Source: Fulvivirga imtechensis AK7 (GTDB taxonomy: Bacteria; Bacteroidota; Bacteroidia; Cytophagales; Cyclobacteriaceae). From it: 64,000 bases of DNA. The notes beneath the pieces were generated by a model. The model worked only from the letters and a program-made list of their open reading frames with translations, had not been told where the DNA came from and did not search any database. Position 1 is the first letter of the stretch. Each line of letters starts with the position of its first letter. The DNA is taken from the NCBI RefSeq assembly GCF_000331535.1, contig NZ_AMZN01000050.1, positions 1 to 64,000 of the forward strand. Reading direction: 5' to 3'. Positions 5,265 through 53,342 of the stretch are shown one piece after another. The position numbers were made by a program, and so were the translations under genes.

Positions 5265-5666
5265 ATGAATACTATCAAAATTCAGATCCCTTCTCTTTCC
5301 GAGAACATCCGAATGATCGAAAGTTTTATTGATAACGCCAAAGAAAAATTCCAATTGGACGATGACATCTATGGCAATATTATGATCGCGGTAACAGAAG
5401 CCGTCAATAATGCCATAAAACACGGAAACCAACATGACAAGGCAAAAAATGTGGCATTATCTCTATCTCTTCAGGATAGTCTTATCAAGTTTATCGTACG
5501 CGATGAAGGCAAGGGTTTTGACTTTAAAAACCTGCCTGACCCCACTTCTCCTGAAAACCTGGAAAAACCTGGCGGTCGGGGCATATTCCTGATGAAGCAC
5601 CTATCTGATGAAGTAGTATTCAAAGAGGAGGGTAAAGTGGTAGAACTCAATTTCTATATTAATTAA
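5265..5666 (+). CDS. RsbW-like ATP-binding protein (anti-sigma factor/serine kinase fold)
   Basis: A 133-residue GHKL ATPase domain without other domains. It shows the N box (NEAVNNAIKHGN), the G1 box (DEGKGFDF) and the G2 box (GGRGIFLMK). This minimal form is typical of RsbW/SpoIIAB-like anti-sigma kinases, which bind a sigma factor or phosphorylate a STAS-domain antagonist. No STAS protein or matching sigma factor is adjacent; the only sigma gene in the window is at 21289. It starts 6 bases after the DUF4175 gene and its stop overlaps the ybeY start. Confidence 0.87.
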   Translation: MNTIKIQIPSLSENIRMIESFIDNAKEKFQLDDDIYGNIMIAVTEAVNNAIKHGNQHDKAKNVALSLSLQDSLIKFIVRDEGKGFDFKNLPDPTSPENLEKPGGRGIFLMKHLSDEVVFKEEGKVVELNFYIN

Positions 5667-6088
5667 TGACCTCTATCAACTTCTTTCAAGAAGAAATTGA
5701 GTTTGACTTAGCAAATAAACGAGCCATTGCCAGTTGGGTCAAACAAGTGATAAAGGCCGAAAAATGTAGGTTAAAAGAATTGAACTATATTTTTTGCTCC
5801 GATGAGTATCTCTATAAAATGAATGTAGAGCATCTGGATCACAACACATTTACAGATATCATTACATTCGACAACTCTGAAGCGGCAGAACAAATAGAAG
5901 GAGACATCTTTATCAGTATTGACAGAGTAAAGGATAACGCTTCAAATCTGAACCTGCCTTTTGAAGAGGAGTTACACCGTGTAATGATCCATGGCGTTTT
6001 ACACCTGATAGGATACGGGGATAAAACCGAGAATGAAAAAACGCAGATGCGTAAAAAAGAAGAGGCTTGCTTATCTTTGCGCCAATAA
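5666..6088 (+). CDS. ybeY: Endoribonuclease YbeY (rRNA maturation factor)
   Basis: The 140-residue protein carries the metal-binding signature HGVLHLIGYGDKT, whose histidines coordinate the catalytic zinc. YbeY is a single-strand endoribonuclease acting in 16S rRNA 3'-end maturation and ribosome quality control. Length fits the family. The start overlaps the preceding stop, and the gene ends 12 bases before the first parS palindrome at 6101. Position upstream of mnmG is a conserved-looking Bacteroidota arrangement, though I infer that from memory. Confidence 0.94.
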   Translation: MTSINFFQEEIEFDLANKRAIASWVKQVIKAEKCRLKELNYIFCSDEYLYKMNVEHLDHNTFTDIITFDNSEAAEQIEGDIFISIDRVKDNASNLNLPFEEELHRVMIHGVLHLIGYGDKTENEKTQMRKKEEACLSLRQ

Positions 6089-6100
6089 AAAATATACAAG

Positions 6101-6116
6101 TGTTCCACGTGGAACA
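6101..6116. promoter_or_regulatory. parS site 1 (ParB-binding palindrome)
   Basis: TGTTCCACGTGGAACA is a perfect 16-base palindrome. It matches the widely conserved chromosomal parS consensus (TGTTNCACGTGNAACA) bound by ParB/Spo0J. It lies in the 91-base gap between ybeY and mnmG, 32 bases before a second perfect copy, and about 4.6 kb from the putative oriC, as expected of origin-proximal parS. Confidence 0.9.
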
Positions 6117-6145: not shown

Positions 6146-6165
6146 GGTGTTCCACGTGGAACACC
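6146..6165. promoter_or_regulatory. parS site 2 (ParB-binding palindrome)
   Basis: The core TGTTCCACGTGGAACA at 6148-6163 is identical to site 1, and here the symmetry extends to a perfect 20-base palindrome. The site ends 14 bases before the mnmG start codon, so bound or spreading ParB could also affect expression of mnmG. That regulatory effect is inference. Confidence 0.9.
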
Positions 6166-6179
6166 ATTTAAAAAATATT

Positions 6180-8045
6180 ATGTTTCAGGAGTATGATGTT
6201 ATAGTAGTAGGAGCTGGGCATGCCGGATGTGAGGCTGCACATGCTGCGGCGATGATGGGCTCAAAAGTGCTTTTAGCCACCATGAATATGAACACCATTG
6301 CGCAAATGTCGTGCAACCCTGCAATGGGGGGGGTAGCTAAAGGTCAAATTGTGCGTGAAATAGATGCGCTGGGGGGAATGTCGGGTATTATTTCTGACAA
6401 ATCAATGATCCAGTTTCGCATGCTTAACAAGTCTAAGGGGCCCGCCATGTGGAGTCCACGTACTCAAAATGACCGCATGAGATTCGCTGAAGAGTGGCGA
6501 ATAGCATTAGAAAACACGCCAAATGTGGATTTTTGGCAAGAAATGGTTACCGGTATAACAGTCGTTGGTAATAAAGTAACGGGCATAAAAACGAGTTTAG
6601 GACTGGAAATAAAGGCCAAAGCAGTCGTTCTCACGAATGGTACCTTTCTTAATGGCATTATTCATATCGGTGAAAAACAATTTGGAGGTGGGCGTACAGG
6701 AGAAAGGGCCGCCAAAGGAATAACGGAGCAGTTAGTCCAATTAGGGTTTGAAGCCGGGCGCATGAAAACAGGAACACCTCCAAGGGTAGACGGTCGCTCC
6801 TTAGACTATAGTAAAATGGAGGAGCAAAAAGGTGATGACGAACCTGAAAAATTCTCCTTTAGCAATACTACACAACCGCTCCTCGAGCAACGGAGCTGCT
6901 ATATCACCTATACCAATAGTGCCGTTCACGATACTCTACAAACGGGGTTTGACAAATCACCAATGTTTAATGGACGAATACAGGGCATAGGACCCAGGTA
7001 CTGTCCTTCTATCGAAGACAAGATTAATCGCTTTGCGGAACGTGATAGACATCAGATATTTGTCGAGCCAGAAGGCTGGAACACTGTAGAAATTTATGTT
7101 AACGGATTTTCAACATCCTTACCGGAAGACATTCAGTATAAAGCACTTACGTTAATTCCGGGTTTTGAAAAAGCCAAAATGTTCAGACCTGGATATGCTA
7201 TAGAATATGATTTCTTTCCACCCACACAGCTTAGTCTTACCCTTGAGACCAAACTAATTGAAAACCTGTACTTTGCAGGACAAATCAATGGCACCACAGG
7301 ATATGAAGAAGCCGCTTGCCAGGGACTGATCGCCGGAATAAATGCACATAATAAGATCACCGAAAAGGAACCATTCGTGCTAAAAAGATCTGAAGCGTAT
7401 ATAGGCGTTCTTATTGACGACCTAATTAACAAGGGCACTAAGGAGCCCTATCGGATGTTTACATCCCGTGCAGAGTTTAGAATTTTATTGCGACAGGATA
7501 ACGCTGATCTACGTCTTACAGAAAAAGGTCATGCTCTGGGACTCGCCTCAGATGAAAGGTTACAAAATATGCTGGACAAAAAGAATGACGTAGCCAGACT
7601 CATCAACGATCTAAATCAAAAAAGGATAGCTCCGGAATATGCCAACGAGAGCCTTACCCACATGAATTCTGCTTCCATTCGTCAAAAAGTACCGGTTCTA
7701 GGTTTGTTGAAACGCCCGGAACTAAACATACAACAAATAAAACTGTTGAATGACGATCTTAAGGATTACCTGAACAAGTATAGTCAACACGTATTGGAAC
7801 AGGCCGAAATACAAGTGAAATACGATAGCTATATAGAAAAGGAAAAACAGCTTGCTGAAAAAATGGAACAGTTGGAGGACAAAAAAATAAGAAATGACTT
7901 CAACTACGATGAAGTAAAGGCGCTTTCCGCAGAAGGAAGAGAAAAATTAAAAAAGATAAAACCTCAAACAATAGGGCAGGCCTCAAGAATAAGTGGCGTA
8001 TCTCCATCAGATATATCCATTCTAATGGTCTACCTAAGTAAATGA
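6180..8045 (+). CDS. mnmG: tRNA uridine 5-carboxymethylaminomethyl modification enzyme MnmG
   Basis: The 621-residue FAD enzyme works with MnmE to install cmnm5U at the tRNA wobble uridine. The FAD-binding motif VVGAGHAGCEAAHAA lies at residues 8-22. GTPPRVDGRSLD and EEAACQGLIAGINA are standard MnmG segments, and the C-terminal helical MnmE/tRNA-binding domain is complete. I start it at ATG 6180 (MFQEYDVIVVG) because that gives the normal N-terminus. The longer in-frame ORF from 6033 would overlap ybeY and run through both parS sites. mnmG (gidA) is a classic origin-neighbour gene, in keeping with oriC 2.6 kb downstream. Confidence 0.97.
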   Translation: MFQEYDVIVVGAGHAGCEAAHAAAMMGSKVLLATMNMNTIAQMSCNPAMGGVAKGQIVREIDALGGMSGIISDKSMIQFRMLNKSKGPAMWSPRTQNDRMRFAEEWRIALENTPNVDFWQEMVTGITVVGNKVTGIKTSLGLEIKAKAVVLTNGTFLNGIIHIGEKQFGGGRTGERAAKGITEQLVQLGFEAGRMKTGTPPRVDGRSLDYSKMEEQKGDDEPEKFSFSNTTQPLLEQRSCYITYTNSAVHDTLQTGFDKSPMFNGRIQGIGPRYCPSIEDKINRFAERDRHQIFVEPEGWNTVEIYVNGFSTSLPEDIQYKALTLIPGFEKAKMFRPGYAIEYDFFPPTQLSLTLETKLIENLYFAGQINGTTGYEEAACQGLIAGINAHNKITEKEPFVLKRSEAYIGVLIDDLINKGTKEPYRMFTSRAEFRILLRQDNADLRLTEKGHALGLASDERLQNMLDKKNDVARLINDLNQKRIAPEYANESLTHMNSASIRQKVPVLGLLKRPELNIQQIKLLNDDLKDYLNKYSQHVLEQAEIQVKYDSYIEKEKQLAEKMEQLEDKKIRNDFNYDEVKALSAEGREKLKKIKPQTIGQASRISGVSPSDISILMVYLSK

Positions 8046-8046
8046 T

Positions 8047-8925
8047 ATGTTGGAGAAAGTAGATAACTGCCCGCTATGTAATGGCGGGCATTTTAATGAT
8101 TATATTGTTTGTGAAGATTTCACCGTATCTCATGAAAAATTCACTATCACTCAATGCGACCAGTGTCACCTTCTACTGACCAATCCTCGTCCCACCGCAG
8201 AGACAATTTCGAGCTATTACCAATCAGAAAACTACATTTCGCATCAAAATAAGTCCACGAATCCTATCAATTTAATTTACAAAATCGCCCGTCATTTTAC
8301 CATCAAATCAAAAATACGTTTATTAAAAAGACTAACAACTACAGGCAAGGTACTCGATGTAGGCTGTGGCACCGGCCATTTCCTTAAAGCCTGCCAAAAA
8401 GAAGGATGGCAAGCAATGGGGGTAGAACCGGACCCTACGGCAAGAGCAATAGCCTCTGATAAAACAGGTATCCAAATAACTAATACCCTGTTCAAGTTAG
8501 AAACGACCTTTGACATAATAACACTATGGCACGTACTGGAGCATGTTTCGGACCTCACTTCATATCTTACAAAACTCTACGACCTACTGGATAATAATGG
8601 AACTATCATTGTAGCAGTTCCCAACTACAGATCGTTCGATGCCCAACATTATAAAGAATACTGGGCTGGATATGACGTTCCCAGACATCTATATCACTTT
8701 GATCAGGATGCTATGTTGCGACTGATGGCCAAGCATCAATTAAAAGTAAGAGAAATAGTACCTATGAAATTGGACGCTTACTATGTGAGTATGCTCAGCG
8801 AGGGATACAAACGACCGGGGCTAAAAAAGTATGTGAATTCATTTATAACCGGCTGGAAATCAAATATATACGCTAAAAAAAACAATAAAAATTATTCAAG
8901 TTTAATATATATAATTACTAAATAA
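8047..8925 (+). CDS. Class I SAM-dependent methyltransferase with N-terminal zinc-ribbon-like motif
   Basis: The 292-residue protein begins with CPLCNGG (C8, C11) and a later CDQC pair, a four-Cys cluster typical of the methyltransferases often found in Bacteroidota. The SAM motif I, VLDVGCGTGHFL, is at about residues 99-110, followed by LWHVLEHV and the post-motif region with CxxP-less sequence. The substrate cannot be inferred. It starts one base after the mnmG stop and is followed after 3 bases by the Ig-like lipoprotein gene, so all three are likely one transcript. Confidence 0.87.
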   Translation: MLEKVDNCPLCNGGHFNDYIVCEDFTVSHEKFTITQCDQCHLLLTNPRPTAETISSYYQSENYISHQNKSTNPINLIYKIARHFTIKSKIRLLKRLTTTGKVLDVGCGTGHFLKACQKEGWQAMGVEPDPTARAIASDKTGIQITNTLFKLETTFDIITLWHVLEHVSDLTSYLTKLYDLLDNNGTIIVAVPNYRSFDAQHYKEYWAGYDVPRHLYHFDQDAMLRLMAKHQLKVREIVPMKLDAYYVSMLSEGYKRPGLKKYVNSFITGWKSNIYAKKNNKNYSSLIYIITK

Positions 8926-8928
8926 TAG

Positions 8929-10677
8929 ATGTATCGTATTCCGTGTATAATCGCTTGTTTTGTTCTGGCTCTATTATATTCCTGCGCTAACCAGGTGGCG
9001 CCAACAGGTGGCCCTAAAGATGAAACACCGCCACAACTCATGACATCTGTTCCGAAACAAGGTCAACTCAATTTCAAAGGCGATGAAATAGTATTAGAAT
9101 TCGATGAACTGGTAAGAACAGACAATGCCAAGGAACAATTTATTATCACACCCAGACCTACGCAAGAATACCAGATAAAATATCGCAAGAATAAAGTGAT
9201 CATTCAATTTGATAAACCCCTGGAGGACAGTACAACCTACTCAATCAACTTTCGCGAGGGTATTAAAGACCTTACAGAAGGAAATGCTGCCGATACATTA
9301 AGGCTCGCCTTTAGTACAGGTCACTTTCTGGATTCCCTCTCGATCTCAGGCAAAGTAAAAAATCTACTGTCTGGCAGCCCTGCAAGCGATGTTATGGTTG
9401 CACTCTATAAAGCCAACGACACCTTAGACATTTTTAATAGCCCACCTGTATACCTCACAAAAACATATGCAGATGGCTCCTATCTGTTTGAAAATCTTAA
9501 GAATGGAATTTACAACATATACGCTGTGAGCGACAAAAACAAAAACTTAACGCTAGACAGCAAAACAGAAAAACACGGCTTCCTGGCAGAACCCATACAA
9601 CTGGATACAAGCGTTACCAATATCGATATTCCCATACACTTTCTTGATGTACGTGAGTTTACGTTGCAAAATGCCCGTCAATCAGGCACAACATTCAATA
9701 TTAAATACAATAAGTACGTAACTGACTATAAACTGATATTACCAGATACCACGACATTAACCTACAACAACTTCGCGGATGACACCCATACATCTATACA
9801 ACTATTCAAACCCATTGACTACCAAGATAGTATATTGTTTTATATACAAGCGTCAGATTCAATTGAAACAGTAGCCGTAGATACACTATACGCTAAATTC
9901 GAGCCCACCCAGCGAAGTCCTGTAAGTTTTACAACATCAACTGATCTGAAGCGCATCGTCACCAAAACGCCTGTCATAAAAGCGGAGATAAAATTCAATA
10001 AACCGGTTCGCTCCGTAAACCCCGACAGTTTATATATTTATCTTGATTCAGCCAATGTGATTTTTATGACACAGGAAAATTCCACGTGGAACACCACAGG
10101 AGATATCCTTAGTATAAATCAGGCTATCAGTCCCGATCTGTTTGTGACAAAAACAGAGAATCAATCAGTACCATCACAATTTCAAAAGCCGCAGGGCGTG
10201 GGAAAAATCACAACTCCAGAAGAGTCATCCCCAGACACTAAAACAGACACCACCAGGTCTCCAACTGTGTCAGTCCCACCACATTTATACATGGGACAAG
10301 GCGCATTCATCAGCGCTGAGTCTGACACCAGTAAAATTTTTAGTAAGGACCTAAGCTTTGTACAACCCAACCAGTTAGGAGTTATTCTCGTAGAAATACA
10401 AACAGAAGTAACAAATTATATCGTACAACTTCTAAGCAAGAATACAGTCGTAGCCGAAAATATTAATGGCAAGGCTTTTGAATTCAAAAATATTGAACCT
10501 GGAGAATACCGGATCCGTGTTCTCATAGACAGCGACAATAATGGCAAATGGGACATTGGCAATATTAAGGCAAATAAAGAACCTGAGCCGGTCATCTTTT
10601 ATGAAAACAGCGAAGGCAACCAGACCGTTACACTACGTGCAAACTGGGAAGTGGGTCCGCATGTTATTTCATTTTGA
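8929..10677 (+). CDS. Ig-like domain lipoprotein (Bacteroidota-type)
   Basis: The 582-residue precursor has a lipoprotein signal, with LLYSC giving a lipidated Cys19. An SbsA/Big_5 Ig-like domain follows at about residues 35-130 (PPQLMTSVPKQG to LRLAFSTG). A carboxypeptidase-regulatory-like/SdrD-like beta domain follows at about 135-230. Two repeats (residues ~325-375 and ~485-580) look like further beta-sandwich modules. It is probably an outer-membrane surface lipoprotein of unknown role. The DNA contains a degenerate parS at 10078-10093, and the stop at 10675-10677 abuts the first DnaA box of oriC. Confidence 0.85.
   Translation: MYRIPCIIACFVLALLYSCANQVAPTGGPKDETPPQLMTSVPKQGQLNFKGDEIVLEFDELVRTDNAKEQFIITPRPTQEYQIKYRKNKVIIQFDKPLEDSTTYSINFREGIKDLTEGNAADTLRLAFSTGHFLDSLSISGKVKNLLSGSPASDVMVALYKANDTLDIFNSPPVYLTKTYADGSYLFENLKNGIYNIYAVSDKNKNLTLDSKTEKHGFLAEPIQLDTSVTNIDIPIHFLDVREFTLQNARQSGTTFNIKYNKYVTDYKLILPDTTTLTYNNFADDTHTSIQLFKPIDYQDSILFYIQASDSIETVAVDTLYAKFEPTQRSPVSFTTSTDLKRIVTKTPVIKAEIKFNKPVRSVNPDSLYIYLDSANVIFMTQENSTWNTTGDILSINQAISPDLFVTKTENQSVPSQFQKPQGVGKITTPEESSPDTKTDTTRSPTVSVPPHLYMGQGAFISAESDTSKIFSKDLSFVQPNQLGVILVEIQTEVTNYIVQLLSKNTVVAENINGKAFEFKNIEPGEYRIRVLIDSDNNGKWDIGNIKANKEPEPVIFYENSEGNQTVTLRANWEVGPHVISF
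10078..10093. promoter_or_regulatory. Degenerate parS-like site inside a coding region
   Basis: The bases are AATTCCACGTGGAACA. They match the two perfect parS copies at 14 of 16 positions and keep the whole inner palindrome TTCCACGTGGAA. It lies about 590 bases from the start of oriC. The reading frame over it encodes ENSTWNT. It may be a weaker ParB site or chance retention. Confidence 0.5.
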
Positions 10678-11067
10678 TGTGGATAACTATGATTACAATA
10701 TGTGGATTACGCAGGCTCAAATGTGCTTAACTTTAGCAAATAGTTCCATGCATAAACATACTGTTGATTTCTATCAACAAATACGTTTTATACCTGTGGC
10801 AATCCACAGATAAAAATAAGTAAATTGTTTTTCCACAATCCATAATAACGACTGTGGACAATTCATAATTACCTAATTTTCAATGAATTAAAAGGTTACT
10901 GATTGTGGATAAATTCTTTAATAGATAACCTTTCATCCACAATTAATATAAGCAAATTAAAACTGAAGAATTTATCCACGTATCCACATGTTAAATATAA
11001 TAATAACTTTTATATATAATTATATTATATAATATTAGGTGTGTGGATGGATGTTAATAAAGCTGAA
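10678..11067. other. Putative chromosomal replication origin (oriC)
   Basis: This gene-free stretch is dense in DnaA boxes. TGTGGATAA is perfect at 10678-10686 and 10904-10912. Boxes one base off consensus are at 10701-10709, 10829-10837, 10853-10861, 10933-10941, 10972-10980 and 10980-10988. A perfect TTATCCACA is also present at 11237-11245 just inside the next gene. At 10991-11038 there is a nearly pure A/T tract with a single C, suitable as the DNA-unwinding element. In hand-counted samples GC skew is reversed: 9781-9840 has 15 C and 5 G, while 14101-14160 has 7 C and 23 G. dnaA is not nearby, which is usual in this phylum. Confidence 0.88.
10991..11038. other. A/T-rich DNA-unwinding element candidate
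   Basis: Forty-eight bases with only one C, rich in TATATA and ATAATA steps, directly next to the cluster of tandem DnaA boxes ending at 10988. This placement (boxes, then an A/T stretch) is the standard bacterial origin arrangement. The distance from the last box is only a few bases, which supports DnaA-directed melting here. Confidence 0.7.
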
Positions 11068-12912
11068 ATGAAAAATTTTTTTACTTCCTTATTTTTTATA
11101 TTCATAACGACAACCTTTTTGATAGCTCAAAATAAAGAGGATGTTCAGCTCGCCAATGAATACTATTCGCAAGGAGAATATGAAAAAGCAAAAAAACTAT
11201 ACGATGATCTTGCGCGGAACATGGATAATATTCCACTTATCCACAATAACTACTTTTTTTTGCTCATGGAGCTTAACGAGCATAATGAAGCAGAGAAATA
11301 TATAAAACGGCTGATTAAAAGATTTCCGAATAATCTCTATTACCACCTGGACCTTGGTGTATTGTATAAAAACAGTGGTCAGGAAGGCAAAGCACAAAAA
11401 TACTTTGCTGAAATAATAAATGAAGTAAAGCATGACAACTACAGAACCCGTATTACGGCTGATTATTTTGTAACTAAACAACTGACCCCGTTGGCTATAC
11501 AAACTTTTCGGAATGCCCGTGATGCTATTAATAATCCATATGCTTATTCGTTGGAAATGGCCAACATTTACAGGATCATGAACGAAAAGGATCTGATGGT
11601 TCGGGAGTATCTCAATTACGTTAGTCAAAATCCCTCAAATCTTAATTATGTAAAAAATACTTTACAGAGCCTATTGGTGAAACCGGAGGAACTCCAAAGC
11701 CTGGAGGCGCTTTTGTATGATAAAATTCAAAATGAGCCGAATAGTGAAATATATAGTGAGCTACTCATCTGGGTTAATTTGCAACAAAAAAATTTTTATG
11801 GTGCCTTTGTGCAGGCACGTGCTATCGACAAGCGTCTGAAAACTGAAGGTAGCAGGAGTATACACATTGGTTTGATAGCACTGGAGAATAATGACTATGA
11901 TAATGCCATCAATATTTTTAGCTATATTATCAAGGAATATCCCAGCAGTTACAATTATGGCCTGGCCAAAATGTATTTGATACGTTCTTATGAAAAACGT
12001 GTGAAAAATACTTATCCCGTTGATGAGCGGGAGATCAGAAATTTGGTTAATGACTACAACAACTTTATCAATGAATTAGGTATTTCCAGAAACACATTGG
12101 AGGCTTTGAGAAATAAGGCTTTGCTGCATGCATTTTATCTTGATGAGAAGGATTCTGCAATTCAAATATTGAAAAAAATAATAGATACTCCCCGCGCGAA
12201 TCCGGATATTAAAGCAAAGTCGAAACTAGACCTGGGCGATATTTATATTTTAACAGAAGAACCATGGGAATCTACTTTGCTCTATTCACAGGTAGAAAAG
12301 TCACACAAAGAAGATCTCCTGGGATATGAGGCAAAATTGCGAAATGCAAAACTGTCGTACTTTAAAGGTGATTTTCAATTGGCACAGGAGCACCTTGACA
12401 TCCTGAAACAGGCGACTACCCGTGAAATTGCCAATGATGCCATGGCCTTAGGCTTGTTGATCAAAGACAACATTGCCTTTGACAGTACAGAAACTGCGAT
12501 GAAAAAGTACGCAGCTATTGAGCTGTTGCTTTTTCAAAATAAAATAGACAAAGCCTTGCATGAAATACAGCAAATGAGAGCAAAATACCAGGGACATAGC
12601 CTGTCAGATGAACTGCTATGGCTTGAAGCTGATATAGAAAAGAAGCTAGGCCATTTTGAGAATGCCATCGCACTGCTTGAAAAAATTGTTAATGAATACG
12701 ACTATGATATTTTAAGTGATGATGCCTATTTTATGATAGGTTCAATATACGACAGGCAACTTGACAACAAGGAAAAAGCCATGGAGATATATCGAGAATT
12801 GCTCACAAAATACCCAGGAAGTGTGTATGTGGCGGAGGCCAGAAAAAGATTCCGGCAATTGCGAGGAGACCATAATGAGCTAGATCAACAATTCATCAAT
12901 AATGAGCTATAA
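11068..12912 (+). CDS. Secreted tetratricopeptide-repeat protein
   Basis: A protein of about 614 residues with a signal peptide (MKNFFTSLFFIFITTTFLIAQ) and tandem TPR units through most of its length. Clear examples are NEYYSQGEYEKAKKLYDD near the N-terminus and EKAMEIYRELLTKYPGS near the C-terminus. TPR arrays mediate protein-protein contacts; the role is unknown. I start it at ATG 11068 so that the signal peptide is N-terminal. The in-frame upstream GTG at 11041 would place a DnaA-box-like sequence in the coding region. It is the first gene to the right of oriC and reads with the fork. Confidence 0.85.
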   Translation: MKNFFTSLFFIFITTTFLIAQNKEDVQLANEYYSQGEYEKAKKLYDDLARNMDNIPLIHNNYFFLLMELNEHNEAEKYIKRLIKRFPNNLYYHLDLGVLYKNSGQEGKAQKYFAEIINEVKHDNYRTRITADYFVTKQLTPLAIQTFRNARDAINNPYAYSLEMANIYRIMNEKDLMVREYLNYVSQNPSNLNYVKNTLQSLLVKPEELQSLEALLYDKIQNEPNSEIYSELLIWVNLQQKNFYGAFVQARAIDKRLKTEGSRSIHIGLIALENNDYDNAINIFSYIIKEYPSSYNYGLAKMYLIRSYEKRVKNTYPVDEREIRNLVNDYNNFINELGISRNTLEALRNKALLHAFYLDEKDSAIQILKKIIDTPRANPDIKAKSKLDLGDIYILTEEPWESTLLYSQVEKSHKEDLLGYEAKLRNAKLSYFKGDFQLAQEHLDILKQATTREIANDAMALGLLIKDNIAFDSTETAMKKYAAIELLLFQNKIDKALHEIQQMRAKYQGHSLSDELLWLEADIEKKLGHFENAIALLEKIVNEYDYDILSDDAYFMIGSIYDRQLDNKEKAMEIYRELLTKYPGSVYVAEARKRFRQLRGDHNELDQQFINNEL

Positions 12913-52862: not shown

Positions 52863-53342
52863 ATGTTACAAAGGATTCAAACCGTATTTCTGTTACTTGT
52901 AGTTCTCCTCATGCTAGTTATGTTAATTCTGCCATTATGGACCTACCAGTCGGAAGACGCGGGCACTATTTACCTGCTTACTTCTTTTTACCTTGATGCT
53001 AAGGAAGGCACAGCTTTAGCAGAAAGAATTTACTTCCCGTATGCTTTTGTGGCGGTGTTGGCTATTGCAGCGGCCATTGTAGGGGTAATTGAGATTGCTA
53101 AATTCAAGAATCGCTTGCTTCAAATGAAACTGGGCGCACTCAATTCATTGTTTATGGCAGGGGCTATGGGTCTGGGGTTATATTTCGCCAGTGAGATCAT
53201 GGATGAAAAACAGCTTAAATATGGCTGGAACTATGGAATGGGTGTATTTTTTCCCGCAGCAGCTATGATCTGCAACGTGATCGCCAACCGATTTATTCGA
53301 AAAGATGAAAAACTGGTGCGATCAGTCGATCGTATCAGGTAG
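52863..53342 (+). CDS. DUF4293 family four-helix membrane protein
   Basis: A 159-residue protein with four membrane helices, as in the DUF4293 family found widely in Bacteroidota. Starts with LQRIQTVFLLLVVLLMLVML and ends with RIR. The gene diverges from the thiolase gene; the promoter region is at 52795-52862. Function unknown. Confidence 0.82.
   Translation: MLQRIQTVFLLLVVLLMLVMLILPLWTYQSEDAGTIYLLTSFYLDAKEGTALAERIYFPYAFVAVLAIAAAIVGVIEIAKFKNRLLQMKLGALNSLFMAGAMGLGLYFASEIMDEKQLKYGWNYGMGVFFPAAAMICNVIANRFIRKDEKLVRSVDRIR

Follow-up and report, generated by a model that had tools for sequence, protein, structure and literature searches.

In Escherichia coli, dnaA lies away from oriC by tens of kilobases. 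The E. coli origin is situated between gidA and mioC (PMC10225481), that is, near gidA/mnmG, as is the locus described here. In the Bacteroidetes oriC is commonly far from dnaA, according to the statement in PMC4755523 that cites DoriC, and the oriC predicted in the same paper for chromosome I of Prevotella intermedia has multiple DnaA boxes lying at a skew transition, with dnaA elsewhere. In the Flavobacteriaceae, the skew of Mariniflexile litorale was at odds with the dnaA position and the predicted oriC adjoins mnmG (PMC11278836), and the oriC of Algorimicrobium was also put at mnmG (PMC12843772), both by Ori-Finder 2022 and GC skew; a figure legend in PMC11278836 labels ter as mnmG, against the paper's own text. 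Clusters of parS together with skew have been used to place origins, which do not always coincide with dnaA, and PMC10197239 cautions against dnaA as an origin marker. The wider Bacteroidetes/Chlorobi group is not uniform, as the Melioribacter origin is described as lying between dnaA and dnaN (PMC3534657). The basal unwinding system (BUS) of Bacillus subtilis, predicted in most bacterial oriCs, is described in PMC8287927 as one or two DnaA boxes, a spacer of at most 16 bp and at least three NAN trinucleotides.

The locus considered here (positions 10678–11067) belongs to a 64,000-nucleotide stretch of the Fulvivirga imtechensis AK7 genome (the window) and is very probably the chromosomal oriC, with dnaA encoded on a different contig. 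Several lines of evidence thereby place the origin of this lineage. For Bacteroidota, an oriC that sits beside mnmG and well away from dnaA has been published before and is ordinary in kind, since the separation or the mnmG placement is covered in PMC4755523, PMC11278836, PMC12843772 and PMC10197239; the earlier note on this DNA, which hinted that such a position was unusual, overstated the case, as an origin far from dnaA appears in the first of these papers and an mnmG-adjacent one in the second. In the literature searched, no paper was found with both Fulvivirga and oriC, nor was a description found of the fixed order parS–mnmG–methyltransferase–Big_5–oriC with a tandem-box/trio core, parts of which the DoriC and Ori-Finder tables may record.

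The locus differs from each of the described systems. Unlike in E. coli, 2.6 kb and two genes separate mnmG from oriC, and dnaA is at least 0.86 Mb away in complete relatives. Mariniflexile litorale and Algorimicrobium belong to a different family, and the origin descriptions in those papers mention the adjacent gene alone, without parS or trios. Prevotella intermedia belongs to a different organism group, and the oriC description in PMC4755523 does not give the neighbouring genes. Tandem boxes, a short spacer and central-A trinucleotides are shared with the B. subtilis BUS; here, however, the boxes overlap by one base, TAA dominates, and the unwinding function is putative, being read from the sequence layout.

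The probable origin locus of Fulvivirga imtechensis

The window comes from C50, an 81,739-bp contig in a draft genome of 225 contigs and 6.735 Mb. The order on the plus strand is ybeY (5666–6088), two parS sites, the origin-linked marker mnmG/gidA (6165–8045, taken from the query start, the listed reading frame opening at 6033; PF01134, E 1.6e-163), a methyltransferase gene (8047–8925; PF13489, E 2.3e-30), a Big_5/DUF2141 gene (8929–10677; PF13205, E 1.3e-16, and PF09912, E 7e-10), the DnaA-box array and a TPR protein gene (11041–12912; PF13174 and further TPR models). The array occupies the gap between the Big_5 and TPR genes, which form the left and right borders of oriC; the TPR gene more likely starts at an in-frame ATG at 11068. 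The nearest named mnmG among the matches listed is that of Fulvivirga marina (85% identity).

Perfect DnaA boxes (TTATCCACA/TGTGGATAA) were found at 10678–10686 and 10904–10912 on the minus strand and at 11237–11245 on the plus strand. A mismatch scan placed exactly six boxes with one mismatch between them, at 10701–10709 and 10853–10861 (minus strand) and at 10829–10837 (also seen in the congener alignment), 10933–10941, 10972 and 10980 (plus strand), so that the three perfect positions given by the earlier note, and its count of at least six one-off boxes, were reproduced. The nine boxes lie within 568 bp, well above chance: when the window was simulated 100 times with a first-order Markov model, no 600-bp interval held more than three. 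Across all 64 kb there are five perfect boxes, against a shuffle mean of 0.74.

Five origins were aligned, namely those of the window, F. marina, F. lutimaris and two complete genomes of the same genus (G036 and G107). The box at 10678, directly after the Big_5 stop codon, is invariant in all five and the box at 10904 is kept in four. At 11237 the box falls within the coding sequence of the TPR gene, where it forms part of the peptide PLIHNN; of the four aligned congeners, F. marina has a box at this position, F. lutimaris differs from one by a single base, and G036 and G107 have none. Given the coding position and the absence from these two genomes, this box is probably not part of the core origin.

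The earlier note had held that a denser cluster at another site would speak against an origin here, and none was found in the pieces of the genome examined (the window, L001–L009 and L268–L270). Near-boxes were mapped in these pieces, while the 134 perfect boxes, 100 of which were placed, were counted over the draft. The runner-up has five boxes, counting near-boxes, in 600 bp near position 189,975 of contig C14. This 200-kb contig (L268, L269) carries at least 20 of the 134 perfect TTATCCACA sites against about four expected, and was considered as a rival origin and set aside, the box contexts in the two stretches examined appearing to be coding by eye.

The boxes at 10972–10980 and 10980–10988 form a tandem pair (10972–10988, plus strand), the proposed platform of an unwinding system. 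It is followed on the same strand by DnaA-trio-like repeats (10992–11006), comprising TAA at 10992–10994 and TAATAATAA at 10998–11006, and by an A/T tract at 10991–11038 that is the putative duplex unwinding element. The tract lies where the earlier note had put it but is not pure, with 46 of its 48 letters A or T, the others being C at 11007 and G at 11038. The 17-mer of the tandem pair is identical in four of the five aligned origins, with one change in F. lutimaris, and in all five it is followed by TAA/TAG repeats and then A/T DNA. A hand count against the BUS rule gives a run of five NAN triplets from 10993, 12 nt past the first box of the pair and so inside the spacer limit; the cleaner TAATAATAA run from 10998 begins 17 nt past this box, one above the limit.

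Two perfect palindromes matching TGTTCCACGTGGAACA, which we take to be the parS consensus, lie at 6101–6116 and 6148–6163. They are the only perfect parS sites in the 6.7-Mb draft and both are just upstream of mnmG, as a ParABS centromere clustered near the origin would be. The pair was absent from the earlier note and supports the same origin location. A degenerate parS-like site with two mismatches was also seen at 10078–10093, inside the Big_5 gene and 0.6 kb from the box array.

Conservation of the locus in relatives

A scan with mnmG yielded at least 578 relatives, of which the best 80 were kept; four of these loci were set aside because the contig ends before the gap or the Big_5 gene was unmatched. 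In 69 of the remaining 76 named loci the densest 600-bp box cluster is in the gap downstream of Big_5, in 66 of these with three boxes or more, and over the 76 loci (mostly about 22 kb each) the gap holds 8.8 boxes per kb, as against 0.39 per kb outside it. The comparison of this interval in related genomes, which the earlier note had proposed as a check, thus finds the cluster in the same gap. In ten complete relatives, the densest cluster of a 16–20-kb piece also lies just downstream of the Big_5 match; it is thin in G028 (three boxes), G096 (four) and G114 (three), and the short locus from G107 has six boxes downstream of Big_5. The named loci and the single-contig genomes partly overlap (a 1,413,028-bp contig, for example, is common to both), so the counts are not wholly independent.

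The seven exceptions among the 76 are Siphonobacter aquaeclarae (L070), where the densest cluster is elsewhere yet five boxes are present in the gap, and six Pontibacter loci (L077, L080, L083, L084, L086 and L089), in which no TTATCCACA cluster was found in the expected gap. By eye, some of the Pontibacter intervals contain TGTGGAA-type repeats and that of L077 looks interrupted by a transposase-like reading frame. Three loci titled Thalassobius, Cellulophaga and Bacteroides (L085, L061 and L017, respectively) have mnmG surroundings that are Cytophagales-like, and their names or bins therefore look doubtful.

The unwinding region was compared in 77 intervals, the window and the 76 relatives from the best 80 of at least 578 mnmG loci. 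The tandem 17-mer occurs with three changes or fewer in 64 of them, once on the opposite strand, and has 14 matches in the 1.59 Mb outside the intervals. The 60 nt after the tandem boxes average 80% A/T (63 loci), and 48 of the 63 plus-strand cases have two or more consecutive TAA/TAG within 14 nt; shuffles averaged 3.8 such cases and never exceeded 13. The window is not among these 48, as its TAATAATAA starts 10 nt past the tandem pair and so runs over the 14-nt limit.

Sites resembling parS are similarly fixed in place. With two mismatches or fewer, 77 of the best 80 of at least 578 relatives have a site between −700 and +50 of the start of the mnmG match (all except L061, L064 and L073), and the 80 loci hold 141 sites in this interval and seven elsewhere. 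In whole genomes at the same threshold, all 12 of the 12 have a parS-like site no more than 70 bp from the mnmG match, and 25 of the 33 sites are beside mnmG. A backward-pattern control gave 18 sites against these 33, and parS was accordingly weighed by place and perfection and not by number; the 14 perfect sites, which come from eight of the 12 genomes, are all about 100 bp or less from the mnmG match. In the wider phylum, parS with at most one mismatch was found in 11 of 28 single-contig genomes (16 sites; control, one), all such sites in all 11 being within 1.9 kb of mnmG, and no site at this threshold was found in the other 17. The mark beside mnmG can indicate where the origin lies even in fragmented drafts for which no skew plot can be made.

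GC skew and the position of dnaA

The F. imtechensis dnaA is on a separate contig (C139), and its 3.5-kb region holds a single box. Besides the F. imtechensis draft, eleven single-contig genomes came out of a search of 118 genomes at family level, and all eleven were used. The distance from dnaA to the locus is 0.86–2.41 Mb in all of them, and 0.90 and 0.97 Mb in the two that belong to the same genus. The greatest relative separation noted is in G012, where 0.44 of the chromosome length lies between dnaA and the locus, which puts the gene near the expected terminus.

The earlier note had also reported a reversal of GC skew across the box array. In 2-kb windows the skew does change from −0.14 to +0.07, and skew at 4-fold sites is −0.124 (plus-strand genes) and −0.097 (minus-strand genes, 31 sites only) to the left of the array and +0.005 and +0.067, respectively, to the right, the expected sign change but a weak one. 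The local flip is therefore real but not specific, because the sign also flips at several further places within the window, and cumulative skew reaches its minimum at 52,992, both for the window and for its whole contig. Skew within the window was consequently rejected as evidence for an origin.

As the F. imtechensis genome is a draft of many contigs, the skew test of the origin was made on eight complete relatives (G036, G107, G012, G028, G030, G047, G085 and G116), G091, G096 and G114 being outside the sample. The raw skew sign is explained in 92 of 108 stretches with the locus as origin and in 56 of 108 with dnaA as origin. With the locus as origin, the sign fits in 20/20 and 15/20 evenly spaced stretches of G036 and G107, respectively. 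In the other six genomes the sample points were at set distances from the locus and dnaA and so are no blind grid; the fit is 10/12 in G012, 11/12 in each of G028, G030 and G047, poor in G085 (8/12), and 6/8 in G116 (with samples almost all from one side). In five genomes the best-fitting origin is no more than 7 kb from the locus, and in G012, G028 and G085 it is 90–116 kb off. Resolution by skew is tens of kilobases or worse; thus skew gives the region and the box array gives the site.

Across the eight relatives sampled, the skew signs mostly agree with a change from negative to positive at the site and the opposite change near the antipode, weakly in G085. The two changes are seen in both G036 and G107. 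Between 600 kb and the locus, all 11 sampled stretches of G036 have a negative raw skew. It remains negative past the locus at 840 and 860 kb (two 20-kb stretches, 840–880 kb) and is positive from 880 kb to 3.96 Mb except for −0.022 at 920 kb; from 4.29 Mb onward the sign is negative again, and the antipode of the locus falls at 4.10 Mb. The 4-fold-site skew has risen by 840 kb. Of 20 extra stretches around the locus in this genome 17 fit, the misses being those at 840, 860 and 920 kb.

These data bear directly on whether the origin is at dnaA and the cluster something else, as the dnaA-started records of the group imply. Origins adjacent to dnaA are common in bacteria, and three of the 11 complete relatives (G028, G047 and G085) are numbered from within 1 kb of dnaA. 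However, G028, G030, G047 and G085 have the same skew sign on both sides of dnaA in the sampled stretches; the raw sign differs across dnaA in G012 (+0.004 to −0.032) and G116 (−0.010 to +0.035), but these values are close to zero, and the mean skew at 4-fold sites does not change sign. With these flanks, the fit of about half the skew signs and the single box at the F. imtechensis gene, an origin at dnaA was rejected as highly improbable. The earlier note's reading, an origin away from dnaA, is borne out by the skew, the dnaA distances and the parS pair.

The coarse resolution of skew would also accommodate a site near the origin and not at it, such as a datA- or DARS-like locus for DnaA titration or reactivation, and such non-origin box clusters are known in E. 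coli (datA, DARS2). This is very unlikely, as the tandem pair, trio-like repeats and A/T tract stand family-wide in the order of an unwinding system and the array is the densest cluster of the retrieved loci in all but seven of the 76. That the boxes belong to a DnaA-regulated promoter of the TPR gene, with the A/T tract mere promoter DNA, accords with a tract that stops just ahead of the TPR start and with DnaA acting as a transcription factor elsewhere (in the account of PMC8203912), but it is exceedingly unlikely, since many Algoriphagus-type relatives have the cluster with no downstream TPR match by tblastn, and it leaves the skew and parS unexplained.

For an oriC at 10678–11067, known DnaA and ParB families suggest how replication may start. 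DnaA, encoded elsewhere (0.9–1.0 Mb off in the complete congeners), would bind the box array and polymerise rightward from the tandem pair onto the trio-like repeats, and the oligomer would melt the A/T tract up to 11038. Helicases would load at the melted tract and two forks depart in opposite directions. ParB, bound at the two parS sites 4.5 kb leftward of the locus, would afterwards organise the new origins and segregate them.

dnaA and mnmG across the phylum

Distances between dnaA and mnmG in the wider phylum were taken from rounded lengths, the skew evidence being confined to the family. In the same class outside the order they are about 0.75 to 1.77 Mb in nine of ten genomes, the exception being G119 (15 kb), and in 18 other genomes of the wider phylum they are at most 80 kb in 11 and 0.15 to 1.03 Mb in seven. 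This pattern fits an ancestral dnaA–mnmG neighbourhood that was later split, with oriC and parS staying by mnmG. The data further suggest that beyond the order the linkage of Big_5 and mnmG is lost in some genomes (e.g. G232) and kept in G119.

We lean towards the view that in Cytophagales-type genomes the origin is a fixed parS–mnmG–methyltransferase–Big_5–oriC module, with dnaA wandering freely, as far as the G012 position. If so, the group would be a natural series for testing whether the position of dnaA, through replication timing and copy number, affects the control of initiation.

The comparison also suggests that the dnaA-numbered records of the family (G028, G047 and G085) begin roughly 1 to 1.4 Mb from the origin. 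An origin misplaced in such records would lead to errors in which strand is taken as leading or lagging, in gene dosage and in estimates of replication rate. Six single-contig records of the wider phylum (G122, G145, G217, G232, G283 and G311) likewise start less than 1 kb from dnaA, and in all nine dnaA-started records, the skew of which was sampled in the three from the family, a distance of at least about 0.9 Mb separates mnmG from dnaA.
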